A stretch of DNA of 64,000 nucleotides from Halomonas sp. LR3S48. GTDB taxonomy: Bacteria > Pseudomonadota > Gammaproteobacteria > Pseudomonadales > Halomonadaceae. The position numbers and the translations under genes were made by a program. Position 1 is the stretch's first letter. Every line of letters begins with the position of its first letter. The notes under the pieces are model-generated. The model was not told where the DNA came from. It saw nothing but the letters and a program-made list of their open reading frames with translations, and ran no database searches. The stretch lies in contig NZ_CP107009.1 of the NCBI RefSeq assembly GCF_025725665.1, forward strand, positions 2,790,001-2,854,000. The letters run 5' to 3'. Shown in pieces: positions 45,901 through 55,110 of this stretch.

Positions 45901-46791
45901 ATGGATACCCAAAGCCTGCAGGCCTTCCTCGCCGTGGCCGACAGCGCCAGCTTCTCGCGCGCCGCGGAGCAGCTGCACCTGACCCAGCCGGCGGTCTCCA
46001 AGCGCATCGCCACGTTGGAGGATCAGATCGGCGCCCGTCTGTTCGACCGCATCGGCCGCCGCGTCACGTTGACCGAGGCCGGCCAGGTACTGCTGCCCCG
46101 GGCGCGGCAGATTCTGGTCATGGTGGATGACAGTCGCCGTGCGCTGGTCAACCTGACGGGTGATGTTGGTGGTAGCCTGACCCTCGCCACCAGCCACCAT
46201 ATCGGCTTGCATCGCCTGCCGCCGCTGCTCAAGGCTTACACCCGCACCCATCCCGAGGTGCGCATGGACCTGCGCTTCCTCGACTCCGAACAGGCCTATC
46301 AAGGCGTGCTTGACGGAGAACTGGAAATCGCCGTAGTCACGCTGGCGCCACACCCGGACCCTCAGCTCGAGGTGGTACCCGTATGGGACGATCGCATGTG
46401 CTTCGTCTGCTCCCACGACCACCCCCTGGCCGAACGGGAGCGGCTATCGTTGCATGAGCTATGCACCTTCGATGCGGTGCTGCCCGGCCCCATGACCTTC
46501 ACTCGTACCTTGATCGAGTCGCGCTTCGCGGCCGCCGGCCTTACGCTACCCGTGGCGCTGGCCACCAACTATCTCGAAACCCTGAAGATGATGACTTCCA
46601 TTGGCCTGGGCTGGAGTCTGCTGCCAGAGCGGCTGGTGGCTGGCGAACTGCACGAGCTAGAGGTGGAACATCCGCCCATCCATCGCTCCTTGGGCTATCT
46701 GGTGCACCGAAGTCGCACCCTCTCCAATGCCGCACGGGCAATGCTGGCACTGTTGGAAGAGGCGCGTGATACAGCGAGTCGCCGAACATGA
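45901..46791 (+). CDS. LysR-family regulator, divergent from leuCDB
   Basis: 296 residues: N-terminal winged HTH (SFSRAAEQLHLTQPAVSKRIATLE, with 18-42 as the recognition unit) and a periplasmic-binding-like effector domain from about 90. The ATG at 45901 follows AAGAGAGACG. Its divergent position from leuC with a 299-base gap is the standard LysR arrangement, so leucine-operon control with 2-isopropylmalate as inducer, as in related bacteria, is likely but inferred. It also runs toward the unrelated membrane-protein gene at 46851. Confidence 0.9.
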   Translation: MDTQSLQAFLAVADSASFSRAAEQLHLTQPAVSKRIATLEDQIGARLFDRIGRRVTLTEAGQVLLPRARQILVMVDDSRRALVNLTGDVGGSLTLATSHHIGLHRLPPLLKAYTRTHPEVRMDLRFLDSEQAYQGVLDGELEIAVVTLAPHPDPQLEVVPVWDDRMCFVCSHDHPLAERERLSLHELCTFDAVLPGPMTFTRTLIESRFAAAGLTLPVALATNYLETLKMMTSIGLGWSLLPERLVAGELHELEVEHPPIHRSLGYLVHRSRTLSNAARAMLALLEEARDTASRRT

Positions 46792-46850
46792 GGAAACATT
46801 GTTAGACTGCTCACAATAATTTTCGACTCCACCTGGAGCCTTACACCATC

Positions 46851-48182
46851 GTGTCCTCTCCCGACTCTCCCGCCACATCGACACGCCATGCCCTGGCGGG
46901 CGTGCTGATTCTGCTTGGGTTGGTGCAGCAGATCCTCGGTTTTGCCGGGGCGTTACCTCTTCCGCACGGGGTCGGCTACGCCCTGTGGCTGGCGACTCTG
47001 CTGCTATGGCGGGACATTCCACACCGCACCCGCTGGCAAGCCGGAGCGCTGGCCGTCATCGGACTGGGACTGCTGGTGATTGCACGCTGGCACTATGGCG
47101 CGCAAATCGCCTGGCCCGCAGTCACCAGCGGTAACACCTATGTGGTGGCGATGCTGGTAGGGGTCAGTTTCATCGGACTGATCGGCAACCGCAGCGGCTC
47201 GTCGCGCCCGCTCGGTCGGCCGATAACGGGGCGCCGGGGCACCCTGGGCACCTGGCTCGGGGTCCATCTGCTCGGCACCATTCTCAATCTGTCGACGGTG
47301 TTCATGATCGGCGACCGCCTCGCCCGGCGCGGCCCATTGACGACGCCTCAGTTGCTGGCACTCAACAGGGGGCTTTCCAGCGCTGCGCTTTGGTCGCCCT
47401 TCTTCGCTTCCATGGGTGTGGTGATGACCCTGGCGCCGGGCATGGAGTACTCGCGCATTCTCGCAGTGGGGCTGCCGCTGGCGCTTGTCAGCGGCGTTCT
47501 CACCACGCTGGAACTGTCGCACCGCTTCGACCTCGCCGATGTGGCGGGCTTTTCGCTTTCGCCGCGCAGCCTGCTGATGCCGGTCGCCATGGCGGCTTTA
47601 GTGATGCTGTTCCATTACCAGCTCACGCCTGCGCTTGGCATCGTCAGCATCATCACTTTCCTGCTGCCGGCGGTGGCCTTGGCCAGCAACCTGCCAGCGG
47701 GAGCCCGCTGGACACTGCGACGCGTGCGCCAGCATACGCTGATACGCCTGCCGGCCATGCGCGGCGAGATCGCCCTGTTTCTCTCCGCCGGACTGCTGAC
47801 TCTGGGGCTTTCGACCCTGGTGGGCGCCGCCACGGGCAGTGAGTGGAAGCTGTTCGCCCGCTTCGGCCCCGCTCAGGCAGTCATCAGCTTCCTCGCGATC
47901 GTGGCCAGTGCCGTGGCGGGGCTGCATCCGATCATCGGCGTCTCGGTACTCGCTTCGACACTCGACCTGAGCGGCAACGAGCAGACCCTGTTCGCCTTCA
48001 CTGCCCTCGCCTCGTGGGCGGTGGGCACCTCGGTGGGGCCACTGTCGGGCATCAACCTGTCACTGCAGGGCCGCTACGGCGTCAGCGGTTACCGCATGAT
48101 GCGCCATAACCTTGGCTATGCTCTCGCTATCAGTACTCTGGTGGTGATCGTCATCATGATCATGGGCGGCATATCGGCATGA
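46851..48182 (+). CDS. Polytopic membrane protein of unknown family
   Basis: 443 residues with about 11-12 hydrophobic segments spread over the whole length, few charges between them, and two Gly/Ser-rich loops (GNRSGSSRPLGRP, and WAVGTSVGPLSGINLSL near the C-terminus, which resembles transporter substrate loops). The GTG start has GGAG 14 bases upstream, so the start is uncertain. I do not recognise a specific family; a permease is the best guess. It lies after the LysR gene and may be its second target. Confidence 0.75.
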   Translation: MSSPDSPATSTRHALAGVLILLGLVQQILGFAGALPLPHGVGYALWLATLLLWRDIPHRTRWQAGALAVIGLGLLVIARWHYGAQIAWPAVTSGNTYVVAMLVGVSFIGLIGNRSGSSRPLGRPITGRRGTLGTWLGVHLLGTILNLSTVFMIGDRLARRGPLTTPQLLALNRGLSSAALWSPFFASMGVVMTLAPGMEYSRILAVGLPLALVSGVLTTLELSHRFDLADVAGFSLSPRSLLMPVAMAALVMLFHYQLTPALGIVSIITFLLPAVALASNLPAGARWTLRRVRQHTLIRLPAMRGEIALFLSAGLLTLGLSTLVGAATGSEWKLFARFGPAQAVISFLAIVASAVAGLHPIIGVSVLASTLDLSGNEQTLFAFTALASWAVGTSVGPLSGINLSLQGRYGVSGYRMMRHNLGYALAISTLVVIVIMIMGGISA

Positions 48183-48249
48183 GCTGAACCGGTATCATAA
48201 GGTCGAACAGCGACCGAAGTTTTTCCCGAATGAAACAAACCATGGGCAT

Positions 48250-49380
48250 TCAGGCGTAATCTTCGACAACATCCTTTACGCTTCGATAACTTGGGAAAAA
48301 ATGGGGGTTGAGGGCCATGCCTCGTTCATTTGCGACAGCCGCAGCATATTTCTCCAACTTTTCGTAAGCGCCAGGGTCGATGATGATCTGCGCAACTTTA
48401 TAAGGTAACTTCAACGGTGAAAAACCTGTTTTGAAATACATCAATTCGTCGTTGCATCCTCCCACCCCCCCCCCCAGCATGAGCCACTCGGCACCCTGCT
48501 CAGTGGCATATATGCGCACCTTGTCATGAAGTAGTTTACTAGGGGCAAAACGGTAAAATCCTGGCAAGGTTCCTCCCAGATGATACTGGACGAACTTGCC
48601 GGTATGCATAAAGATGCCAGCACAAACCATGCGATTCTCAATAAAGACCCCGTACATTCTTGCACTAAAGTCCTTGGCGGAAAAAAGCGCCTCGCAATAC
48701 TCCCTTCCGAAGAAGTAATATTCTTTCGCTCCTCGATGGCTCATGGTCTCTTTATAAATCGCCATAAATTCATCGAGATATGATTCCGAATCCACCTCCC
48801 TGCACTCCGCCCCCATTTTTTCCAGCTTCTTTATTCCTCTTTTCAAGCTGTTTCTGTAATTCAACCTCTGTCCTTCCATAGACTCGCGAAGATCAATAGG
48901 AACGGTATCGCCGAGCGTTCTTATTTCACCAAGACCAGCCAGTACCGAAGCAGTATCCAGAAAAGGGTTCAACCGTGCAAAGATAGAAACAATGCCGTGC
49001 TCGCCACACCACATCTCGATACAACGTGACCATATTTTTTTATCAAAATCACTAACACCTCCCTTTGTTAGTGGCCCCGGATAACCGTACGTAGAAGTTA
49101 AATCTTTCCACTGTCTACCGTTTGCCTTAAAAGAACGCAGCAGTAACGGCCAGACAATAACGCCACCGCGCCCCTTATACGTAAACAGCAAAGGGCTTCC
49201 TTCTCTATTTTTTCGGCTGAGCTCATGAAAATCCCATGTATGATAACAATCATATTCTCCGACATCCTGAAGCGCCCTCCTCCACCCATCTTCTTCAGTA
49301 CTTACTTGAAAAGAATACTTATCGCGCTGAAGAAACTGGTCTTTATTATCGCCCATGTAAAGATCACAATGAGACATCAT
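48250..49380 (-). CDS. FemAB/GNAT-like transferase with poly-G tracts
   Basis: 376 residues. The middle and C-terminal part read as a GNAT/FemAB fold: RLNYRNSLKRGIKKLEKMGA (about 170-190), DEFMAIYKETMSHRGAKEYYF, GIFMHTGKFVQYHLGGTLPG, FAPSKLLHDKVRIYATEQGA and the conserved LGGG with WLML before it. Such enzymes move aminoacyl groups or amino sugars onto cell-wall or polysaccharide precursors. A G11 run (48465-48475) codes the LGGG, and a G9 run sits against the double ATG start (49381-49389). Loss or gain of one G in the G11 run ends the protein after about 10 or 20 codons. AT-richer than the flanks. Last gene of a three-gene cassette. Confidence 0.72.
   Translation of the reverse strand: MMSHCDLYMGDNKDQFLQRDKYSFQVSTEEDGWRRALQDVGEYDCYHTWDFHELSRKNREGSPLLFTYKGRGGVIVWPLLLRSFKANGRQWKDLTSTYGYPGPLTKGGVSDFDKKIWSRCIEMWCGEHGIVSIFARLNPFLDTASVLAGLGEIRTLGDTVPIDLRESMEGQRLNYRNSLKRGIKKLEKMGAECREVDSESYLDEFMAIYKETMSHRGAKEYYFFGREYCEALFSAKDFSARMYGVFIENRMVCAGIFMHTGKFVQYHLGGTLPGFYRFAPSKLLHDKVRIYATEQGAEWLMLGGGVGGCNDELMYFKTGFSPLKLPYKVAQIIIDPGAYEKLEKYAAAVANERGMALNPHFFPSYRSVKDVVEDYA
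48465..48475 (-). repeat. Intragenic poly-G tract (G11)
   Basis: Eleven consecutive C on the plus strand, so G11 in the coding strand of the FemAB-like gene, read as CTG GGG GGG GGG GTG. The frame is intact in this assembly. With 10 G the frame reads WEDATTN and stops. Confidence 0.9.
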
Positions 49381-49389
49381 CCCCCCCCC
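49381..49389 (-). repeat. Poly-G tract at the start codon (G9)
   Basis: Nine consecutive C on the plus strand, G9 in the coding strand, directly against the ATGATG start of the FemAB-like gene. It occupies the ribosome-binding-site position, so length changes would alter start spacing. Confidence 0.88.
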
Positions 49390-49442
49390 AGGGCCGGCAA
49401 TTCAAACGCAAAGCCACTCAACTTAAAACCTCAATAATGCTC

Positions 49443-50033
49443 TCAGCTGCCATTGAAATCCTCCATCGTTACGCAGGTTTCGCTTGTGACTCCGCGACGA
49501 TTTAAAATTTGCCTTATGGTCAAAAAAAGAATCTTGATGTCCAATAGAACGGTTCCGTTATCCACATACCAGACGTCCAACTCGAATTTTTTTTCCCAAG
49601 TTATGCTGTTGCGCCCATTAACCTGAGCCCACCCTGTTATTCCCGGCCGAACGCAATGGCGCCTTGCCTGCTCTTCGTTATAGAGTGGCAGGTACTCCAT
49701 ACACAGAGGACGCGGACCGACCAGGCTCATGTCTCCCTTGAGCACGTTCCATAACTCTGGCAATTCGTCCAGACTGGTGGACCGAAGCATGGTACCAAAC
49801 CTTCCCAATCTCTCTTCATCCGGTAATGGTTGGCCCTCTTCGTCATAAGCCTCACGCATGCTTCTAAATTTAATTATTTCAAAAGGCCTTCCATGCAGAC
49901 CCGGGCGTAGCTGTCGGAACAGAACAGGAGGACCAATAAATAAATAGACAAGTAGCGATACAATAACCAGTATGGGAGCAAACAGGACGATCCCAAGAGC
50001 AGCCAAGACCAAATCCATACACCTCTTGACCAT
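49443..50033 (-). CDS. Small phosphoglycosyl transferase (sugar transferase)
   Basis: 196 residues, the short PglC/WcaJ-core type that loads a sugar-1-phosphate onto undecaprenyl phosphate to start a polysaccharide or glycan unit. It shows a membrane re-entrant helix (LVLAALGIVLFAPILVIVSL), the FEIIKFRSMREAYDEEGQPL motif, the catalytic Asp-Glu of TSLDELPELWNVLKGDMS, VGPRPLCMEYLPLY and RPGITGWAQVNGRN. GGAGG lies seven bases before the ATG. It sits between the ATP-grasp gene and the FemAB-like gene, all on the minus strand. Confidence 0.93.
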   Translation of the reverse strand: MVKRCMDLVLAALGIVLFAPILVIVSLLVYLFIGPPVLFRQLRPGLHGRPFEIIKFRSMREAYDEEGQPLPDEERLGRFGTMLRSTSLDELPELWNVLKGDMSLVGPRPLCMEYLPLYNEEQARRHCVRPGITGWAQVNGRNSITWEKKFELDVWYVDNGTVLLDIKILFLTIRQILNRRGVTSETCVTMEDFNGS

Positions 50034-50080
50034 GCCTATTCCTCCACATTATCCTTAAAGGAACTATAACTATTCGGCTC

Positions 50081-51307
50081 TCATTCAATGACAGTGCCAT
50101 CGGCAGATCGAGCCGTGGACACGCCCTGCAAGGGAGTCGTCTCGATGGCAAGATGCTCAGGCATCCTCGATAACATATTGTGCATTTCTTCGCTGCTGTC
50201 GAAGCGCAGTATCAGAATACCTAAAGGAGCACTGACGGGCTCACCGGGTCGCACCCACATGTGGCGGCTGATAATTTTGGACTCAAGTTGACGTGACATT
50301 TCAATATGGACGAGTCGGCAATTCTCCTTGGCCCGAATGATATAATTAGACCAGAATCCGCTGGGTGCGACTTGCTGGAGAGTGGCACACTCCAGGCCAA
50401 GAGCAGCATCGACGGTATACTTGACCAGATCCACCCCGGTGGCATGCTTTATGACATCGGGTATTCCATCACCGCCATTTCTTGGGCCCACTTCAAGGAA
50501 CCATATTTCCCCCTTGGCATCGACCAGATACTCAACATTGAAAGGGCCGATGCGGCAATCCAGCAGACGCAAAAGCCGCTCTAGCTCACCTGCAGCCTTA
50601 AGGCCAATATTCGAGTCCAGAAGTGTAGGGTAGCTATTGGCAGCGGGAGCAGGCGGCATCCAGGCGGGATCGAAGTGGGCATCGGCCCAGAGCCAGAATT
50701 TGAGCTTGCCGTCGAGCATGAAAACATCGCTATCGATCTGGTAGCCGACCTTCTCAATGCGTTCTTCGAGGACTACTTTCTTTATTCTTGAGAAACTCAA
50801 CGCATAGCCAAATGCCGCATCGAGCTGATCAACAGCATCGATGAAAGAAATCCCACGATTACCTGAAGCATCGACCGGTTTGACAAACACTGGCAGCTTC
50901 AACTGTTCCAACCAGACCCTGGCGTCGTTGATATCCTCGAAAGAGTTTGATTTGGGAGTATTGAATCCATTATCGGCCAAGAAAGCTCGAAACTTGTCTT
51001 TGCGTGTCAACGTCAGTGCAGCCTGATACGGGTTGCCTGGCAGTCCCATCTGCTCGGCGACATAGGCAGCGGTAGGGGCAGCAGAGTCAGCTGCGTAAGC
51101 TACGATACCGTCGATATTCAGATGCCGAGACAAGGCCAAGATGCCTTCTCTGTCGGTGGTGGAAACTGGGTATGCCTCATGGGCCAGTTCATGGCCAAGC
51201 TTGGTCATATCCATATCACAGGTAATCACATGATGCTGCTGCTCCAAGGCATAGAGAATGGGAGGCAGCTGATGGGCTCCTGCACCCAGAAAAAGTATTT
51301 TCTTCAT
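50081..51307 (-). CDS. ATP-grasp enzyme (carboxylate-amine ligase type)
   Basis: 408 residues: Rossmann-like start (KKILFLGAGAHQLPPILYAL), the early LNIDGIVAYAADSAAPTAAY, the ATP-grasp core with the P-loop-like PVFVKPVDASGNRGIS, VVLEERIEKVGYQIDSDVF and the metal-binding EVGPRNGGDGIPDVIK. These are typical of ATP-grasp ligases joining a carboxylate to an amine; some such enzymes sit in polysaccharide loci and make aminoacyl or amide sugars. The substrate is unknown. The ATG at 51307 was preferred to the GTG at 51391 because it gives a normal Rossmann start. First gene of the three-gene cassette. Confidence 0.8.
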   Translation of the reverse strand: MKKILFLGAGAHQLPPILYALEQQHHVITCDMDMTKLGHELAHEAYPVSTTDREGILALSRHLNIDGIVAYAADSAAPTAAYVAEQMGLPGNPYQAALTLTRKDKFRAFLADNGFNTPKSNSFEDINDARVWLEQLKLPVFVKPVDASGNRGISFIDAVDQLDAAFGYALSFSRIKKVVLEERIEKVGYQIDSDVFMLDGKLKFWLWADAHFDPAWMPPAPAANSYPTLLDSNIGLKAAGELERLLRLLDCRIGPFNVEYLVDAKGEIWFLEVGPRNGGDGIPDVIKHATGVDLVKYTVDAALGLECATLQQVAPSGFWSNYIIRAKENCRLVHIEMSRQLESKIISRHMWVRPGEPVSAPLGILILRFDSSEEMHNMLSRMPEHLAIETTPLQGVSTARSADGTVIE

Positions 51308-51805
51308 CGCATTATCTCTGTCAGCACCGACGACGTTGGCGGCAGGATGGAAAGCGTTCTTTAGGTTAGTAATTGTTACGATATTTATCACGGAATAAAA
51401 AGGCTGAAAAATCTAATGGAAGGTAATGACGCTGGAGATTAAATTAATACTTATTAACCAACCTTTTCTCATCACGATAAGGGATTTTGTCACACCATCC
51501 TCGACAATATTCTATAGGCTTATGGTTGTTAAGGCGGGAAGCTCATGCACAAGCAAAACGTTTAACTACAGCCAACAAAAATCATGTTACAGAAAAATAC
51601 TTTCTGAAACTTAAACTTAGAAACACCCTTATATCCAGTCGGCCACTTCAGGCGAAATCTCGAAGTTGTGAAAAGGAGATGCCGTAGAGGATTGCGCCAA
51701 GGATAGACGCTCCTTTATCGAGCGGTAGAGCGGTGATCTTGCTGTCAGGAGCTTCGCATCAAGGAAAATACGAAGCTCCTGTGGCAGGATAACGGGATAG
51801 AGCCG
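51308..51805. other. About 500-base AT-rich gap before the cassette
   Basis: No recognisable gene. The cassette promoter should lie at its left end. A 62-codon frame at 51426-51614 has no protein-family look. An inverted repeat AGGAGCTTCG (51747-51756) / CGAAGCTCCT (51771-51780) lies 26 bases downstream of the ybeL-type gene's stop and may be its terminator, though no T run is seen. The base composition marks the right edge of the accessory region. Confidence 0.45.

Positions 51806-55110
<3,305 letters not shown>

Follow-up and report, generated by a model that had tools for sequence, protein, structure and literature searches.

The eleven-G tract in a FemAB/GNAT-like gene of Halomonas sp. 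LR3S48 is probably a composition-derived run rather than a selected switch

Introduction

Poly-G contingency loci are known from Neisseria, in its glycosylation genes pgl and lgt, and from Campylobacter. Screens for poly-G phase variation take a tract of at least 9 Gs as their cut-off, and Neisseria genomes hold means of 5-19 poly-G tracts each (PMC5953494, in excerpt). Tracts of more than 7 Gs are placed in a hypermutable class and a definite phase-variable assignment is said to require switching that is correlated with a change of the tract; the rates given for Campylobacter jejuni, which is without mismatch repair, reach up to 100-fold the values of Neisseria meningitidis (PMC4235727, in excerpt). 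Loss of MutS or MutL was tied to higher switching (PMC5084427, in excerpt). Our literature search turned up no description of phase variation in Halomonas in the listed titles or the opening lines of their abstracts, and among the papers listed there was nothing on FemAB together with phase variation or on poly-G contingency loci in environmental bacteria.

Here we analysed one stretch of 64,000 nucleotides (hereafter the window), which covers bases 2,790,001-2,854,000 of the single-contig genome of Halomonas sp. LR3S48 (4,689,245 bases). A sequence-only reading of this DNA had proposed that two poly-G tracts make a FemAB/GNAT-like gene phase-variable, through its reading frame and through the spacing of its start site. 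We compared this locus with the rest of the genome, with related genes and with the described systems.

Results

The gene and its neighbours

The three genes in Table 1 form a row on the minus strand in the order ATP-grasp, PglC-type, FemAB/GNAT-like. The product of the last gene matched PF13480 (E 6.6e-11, 43 bits, cut-off 22) and PF02388 (E 1.9e-9, 37.3 bits, cut-off 24), and FemX crystal structures were matched (E 6e-16) by a family profile made from 23 relatives; this match spans the C-terminal half and brings the LGG and FK motifs into register. The GC content of the gene is 46%, compared to the 63% of 400 kb sampled from the genome. No Pfam match was obtained for the window gene 46851-48182, and a search of positions 46000-53000 against Rfam gave nothing at gathering score.

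Table 1. Features of the locus and the remaining long G tracts of the genome (positions are those of the window unless marked as genome positions)
Feature	Position	Strand	Remarks
FemAB/GNAT-like acyl- or aminoacyl-transferase gene (putative)	48250-49380	minus	376 codons; PF13480, PF02388
PglC-type sugar phosphotransferase (Bac_transf)	49443-50033	minus	PF02397, E 2.5e-62; 62 bp upstream of the FemAB/GNAT-like gene
ATP-grasp protein	50081-51391	minus	PF02786 and PF07478 above cut-off; next gene upstream of the PglC-type gene
G11 tract	48465-48475	minus (C11 on plus)	no longer G run exists in the 4.69-Mb genome
G9 tract	49381-49389	minus (C9 on plus)	directly before ATG-ATG; Shine-Dalgarno-like
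G11-T-GGG, potential G-quadruplex with 1-nt loops	48461-48475	minus, mRNA-sense	only GGGNGGGNGGGNGGG in the genome
G9 in group 1 glycosyltransferase gene	genome 2576109-2576117		only other glycan gene among the ten tracts of at least 9 Gs; further slippage candidate
Other eight tracts of at least 9 Gs			in or beside genes for PEP carboxylase, DsbD, FAD oxidoreductase, flavodoxin-fold protein and group 1 glycosyltransferase (the G9 of the row above)
Other eight tracts, rest			410-aa ORF without Pfam match; 3' end of FliK-like ORF (G10); one inter-ORF gap

Of 80 relative loci (the best 80 of 257), 54 had a PglC homologue in the flanks that were fetched. In two relatives (proteins P0015 and P0023) a single protein combines the FemAB-like domain with domains that we take to be of the PglD/NeuD sugar acyltransferase type, a hint that the two work in one glycan pathway. 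Our best inference is that the FemAB/GNAT-like protein has a putative role in modifying a PglC-initiated surface glycan. The ATP-grasp gene had no tblastn match at the locus of H. cerina (L019) or of H. maura (L020). In three Halomonas species the cassette of PglC and FemAB has leuS/DUF1451 on one side and, on the other, a gene for a conserved membrane protein, after which come LysR and leuCD (most of these names were given by eye), and in H. maura the cassette is inverted relative to its flanks.

The G11 tract and its frame effects

The sequence-only reading placed the longer tract inside the conserved LGGG codons, and our count of the sequence agrees: G11 covers codons 302-306 (L-G-G-G-V), being made up of the last G of CTG (L302), the three GGG codons of G303-305 and the first G of GTG (V306). 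Among 23 aligned proteins, L302, G303 and G305 are invariant and G304 is nearly so; a G-rich stretch is thus forced by the motif itself. We also confirmed that the window holds no further G or C run of at least 8, since G11 and G9 are the only runs of at least 7 within the 64 kb. Both tracts reach the published cut-off of at least 9 for poly-G phase variation.

Translation in silico bore out the predicted frame logic. Loss of one G from G11 gives LGGGWEDATTN followed by a stop, a product of 312 aa compared to the full length of 376, and gain of one G gives 22 new codons before a stop, that is 327 aa, close to the approximately 20 codons proposed earlier. A change in the length of G11 would therefore cut the protein short within a motif that is among its best conserved, a predicted effect that rests on the alignment of the relatives' proteins and on the alignment to FemX. 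A frame switch by a one-unit change applies to G11 only, as G9 lies outside the coding frame.

Comparison with relatives

The reading had proposed that related genomes be compared for the length of the tracts. Relatives were found by an alignment-based scan of genome contigs (a protein-pattern scan from the single sequence matched none), and the best 80 of 257, all from named genomes, were retained; the motif could be parsed in 76 of them. None of these 80 has a G run of at least 7 at the motif, the longest being 6 in the 76 parsed loci and 4 within 240 nt in the other four. Within the genus, the FemAB/GNAT-like gene was found in three of 90 genomes, namely our own, H. cerina (63%) and H. maura (56%), and in the last two its neighbours are leuS (named by eye) on one side and, on the other, a homologue of the window gene 46851-48182. 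The motif is written CTG GGG GGA GGT GTA (CTGGGGGGAGGTGTA) in H. cerina and CTG GGA GGC GGG CTC (CTGGGAGGCGGGCTC) in H. maura, and neither species has a G tract before the start codon. At seven further loci from the order, out of 29 loci other than our own, no run of at least 7 was seen anywhere in the stretch, the motif being parsed in four of them. As far as seen, the G11 tract is confined to this species.

The single other near-identical copy that we found, protein P0001, is encoded on a 4,762,915-bp contig of another assembly, which we took to be a second strain. Compared as protein, it is identical at 364 of 368 residues and runs at full length through the motif, a result that fits a stable tract or an ON state alike.

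We also considered a tract conserved upstream in the relatives and rejected it: a run of at least 7 in the open frame occurs in only three of the 76 parsed loci, and on the coding strand all three are of C, not G. These are a C7 in Pseudomonas sagittaria and in Pseudomonas sp. A-1 and a C14 in Stutzerimonas stutzeri K1 (L027, 3933-3946), all before the likely start codon. The C14 of K1 is possibly an artefact because the K1 assembly also contains at least 86 consecutive Cs.

Long G tracts in the genome

The genome has 26 G tracts of at least 8 (16 G8, seven G9, two G10 and one G11), ten of which are of at least 9. Markov models of orders 1 to 5, trained on 400 kb of the same genome, gave expectations of 72, 10.6, 11.7, 7.8 and 3.9 tracts of at least 9, compared to the observed 10, and of 5.5, 0.46, 0.52, 0.29 and 0.10 tracts of at least 11, compared to the observed one. 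Eight genomes simulated at order 3 had 6-16 tracts of at least 9, and a run of 11 was present in two of the eight; at order 5 the corresponding eight genomes had 0-6 such tracts and none had a run of 11. The number of tracts agrees with orders 2-4 and lies somewhat above what order 5 gives. Long runs are, at order 5, somewhat commoner than the short runs predict, an excess that slippage itself would produce. Overlapping G9 matches number 14 in this genome, which is the genus median (of 90 genomes, 43 have fewer, six the same, our own included, and 41 more).

Within the gene, shuffling of synonymous codons gave a run of at least 11 in 0.36% and of at least 9 in 3.4% of cases; with the codon usage of the genome the values were 0.27% and 2.4%. 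A pair at most 916 bp apart among ten randomly placed tracts has p ~0.018 (by arithmetic and post hoc), and a pair within 1 kb was seen in none of 16 simulated genomes, so that a pair as close as this one is a mildly unusual feature (~0.02, post hoc). The remaining tracts (Table 1) show, by their presence in genes such as those of PEP carboxylase and DsbD, that this length is tolerated in core metabolic genes.

Several other genomes of the genus have very many or very long G runs (G101, G098, G107, G058 and G051; for example, a run of at least 58 is present in G098 and one of 16 in G101), and assembly artefacts are a possible source of the very long ones. In 12 stretches of the tract-rich G101 inspected by eye no surface-gene pattern was seen; the tracts are located between genes as well as within or next to them, on a chromosome that is mostly GC-rich.

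Selection for the tract, which the phase-variation reading implied, was not supported by these comparisons: the 80 relatives examined (best 80 of 257) are without it at the motif, the counts fit orders 2-4 and tracts of 9-10 stand in core metabolic genes. The genome has open frames that code for MutS and MutL domains, and this speaks against slippage of the Campylobacter kind, as Campylobacter jejuni is without mismatch repair (PMC4235727, in excerpt).

The G9 tract and the start codon

The shorter tract does touch the start codons as had been described, the open reading frame opening with ATG ATG right after G9. The proposal that the gene is switched by start-site spacing was not supported by the calculation of pairing with the anti-Shine-Dalgarno sequence of 16S rRNA. 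Runs of 6 to 12 Gs give -8.9 to -10.9 kcal/mol, and the best energy of -10.9 is unchanged from G8 to G12, on which ground we reject the spacing switch in its stated form; a G run that slides along the anti-Shine-Dalgarno sequence buffers the spacing, so a switch of this kind is unlikely. The hexamers of -8.9 kcal/mol within G9 end 0-3 nt before the first ATG and thus 3-6 nt before the second, which is a usable distance for a Shine-Dalgarno element. An alternative ATG at codon 9 is without comparable pairing. When tract lengths from G6 to G13 were tried, an upstream GTG or TTG came into frame through the tract only at G7, G8, G10, G11 and G13, not at G9; a length-dependent N-terminal extension is possible on this basis, without other support.

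Evidence on the start itself is mixed. The near-identical P0001 was called from the later ATG at codon 9, and P0002 aligns gap-free to the N-terminus of the window protein from the second ATG (by eye). Start-like ATGs in the 400-kb sample amounted to 1 of 4 after 5 Gs, 1 of 50 after 4 Gs, 6 of 109 after 3 Gs and 355 of 7065 after none, with no trend, so that start-site statistics in this sample, with only four ATGs after 5 Gs, do not support a Shine-Dalgarno reading of G9. The pattern H-G7-ATG occurs 493 times in the 90 genus genomes compared to 134 for the reversed pattern (above this control in 82 genomes and below it in five), the control being a poor one as it contains TAG. By its pairing energies, G9 looks more like a Shine-Dalgarno-like leader than a spacing switch. 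The same layout as G9-ATG is seen elsewhere in the genome, where a G10 (genome 2740062-2740071) stands immediately before the ATG of a small ORF, and this ORF overlaps the FliK-like gene at the 3' end of the latter.

Discussion

We consider it likely that G11 is a composition-derived and mutable run that comes from a conserved motif, and not a selected switch. This reading is favoured because the tract counts fit orders 2-4, the genome stands at the genus median, comparable tracts lie in metabolic genes, the relatives examined (best 80 of 257) show no run above 6 at the motif, and MutS and MutL are encoded; also because the near-identical P0001 is of full length and the pairing of G9 is equal for 8 to 12 Gs. 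We counted against it that two of the ten tracts lie within 1 kb, the longest in a gene of glycan type and a third in a glycosyltransferase gene, and that order 5 falls short (3.9 vs. 10), none of its eight simulations reaching 10 tracts or holding a G11. Also counted against it were the AT-richness of the gene, the low share of codon shuffles (0.36%) that reach a run of at least 11, the hypermutable class to which more than 7 Gs are assigned (PMC4235727, in excerpt), the missing support from start-site statistics for G9 as a Shine-Dalgarno sequence, and the later ATG at which P0001 starts. An alternative is that the locus is an evolved contingency locus, in which slippage of G11 reversibly turns a glycan-modifying enzyme on and off and yields surface variants, for instance against phages. 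Its tract length and frame logic, the second tract beside the gene with the longest tract of the genome, the excess of tracts of at least 9 over the order-5 prediction, the glycan-type cassette, the PglC homologues of 54 among the 80 relative loci (best 80 of 257) and the G9 in a glycosyltransferase gene elsewhere all agree with it. We nonetheless hold it to be unlikely, given the 80 relatives examined (best 80 of 257), none of which has a tract at the motif, the tract number that composition predicts at orders 2-4, the mismatch repair genes, the nearly as long tracts in metabolic genes and the full-length P0001. Phase-variable tracts may be species-specific, so their absence from other species is not fatal to a switch.

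Less likely still is a wider proposal, which we rate as improbable, that a free-living halophile switches the FemAB-type modification of a PglC-initiated surface glycan on and off by poly-G slippage, with a tract that is also the only G-quadruplex motif of 1-nt loops in the genome, so that its length could affect both frame and translation, and with G9 modulating initiation. That G11-T-GGG acts as a G-quadruplex in mRNA or DNA, slowing translation or replication so that length works via folding and not via frame, is very improbable: the motif is the only one of its kind in the genome and lies on the mRNA-sense strand, but 16 simulated genomes had 0-3 each, which puts a single occurrence at about the chance level, at least one such motif occurs in 46 of 90 genus genomes, and neither H. 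cerina nor H. maura has kept the stretch. Homopolymers are error-prone in sequencing. Implausibly long G or C runs were present in other genomes that we searched, and one or both tract lengths could in principle be sequencing or assembly errors; we give this hardly any credence, as G11 keeps the frame open and P0001 from another assembly agrees with it, although this bears on G11 only, G9 being outside the frame.

On the favoured reading, that of a composition-derived run, the FemAB/GNAT-superfamily transferase would work with the PglC-type sugar phosphotransferase in the synthesis of a surface glycan, and the conserved Leu-Gly-Gly-Gly, written in this species as CTG GGG GGG GGG GTG, would yield the G11. 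The tract very probably slips sometimes, as its length suggests, and probably produces rare null variants; these truncated alleles would be revertible, and their rate would be held down by mismatch repair. The G9 before ATG-ATG would then be a loose Shine-Dalgarno-like leader that, judging by the pairing energies, tolerates changes in length. From the sequence-only reading we thus retain the length of the tract, the frame logic and, as the probable function, a gene of the surface-modifying kind; selection for the tract, the spacing switch and slippage of the Campylobacter kind were not upheld. Should the tract switch, poly-G contingency loci would be extended to free-living halophiles. If it does not, the locus makes a useful control case, one that passes the length screen and concerns the right kind of gene, yet gives little sign of selection once the genome and the relatives are counted.

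Among described systems, the FemX/FemAB family (UDP-MurNAc-pentapeptide alanyltransferase FemX, PDB 4ii9 and 1ne9) resembles the encoded protein in the profile match over the C-terminal half, including LGG and FK, and in the Pfam FemAB and GNAT assignments, whereas the neighbour here is a PglC-type sugar phosphotransferase and not a peptidoglycan gene. In Pseudomonas aeruginosa, intergenic homopolymer indels directly upstream of probable envelope genes recall the position of G9; these were seen in evolved hypermutator lines, and it was argued that selection had favoured them (PMC8115180, in excerpt), whereas our tract is known from sequence only. Finally, the locus differs from the poly-G contingency loci of Neisseria and Campylobacter in that its relatives are without a tract at the motif, mismatch repair genes are present and the tract comes from assembled sequence alone; it is like them in having a poly-G tract of at least 9 in a gene for probable surface-glycan work, in which a change of one base truncates the predicted product.
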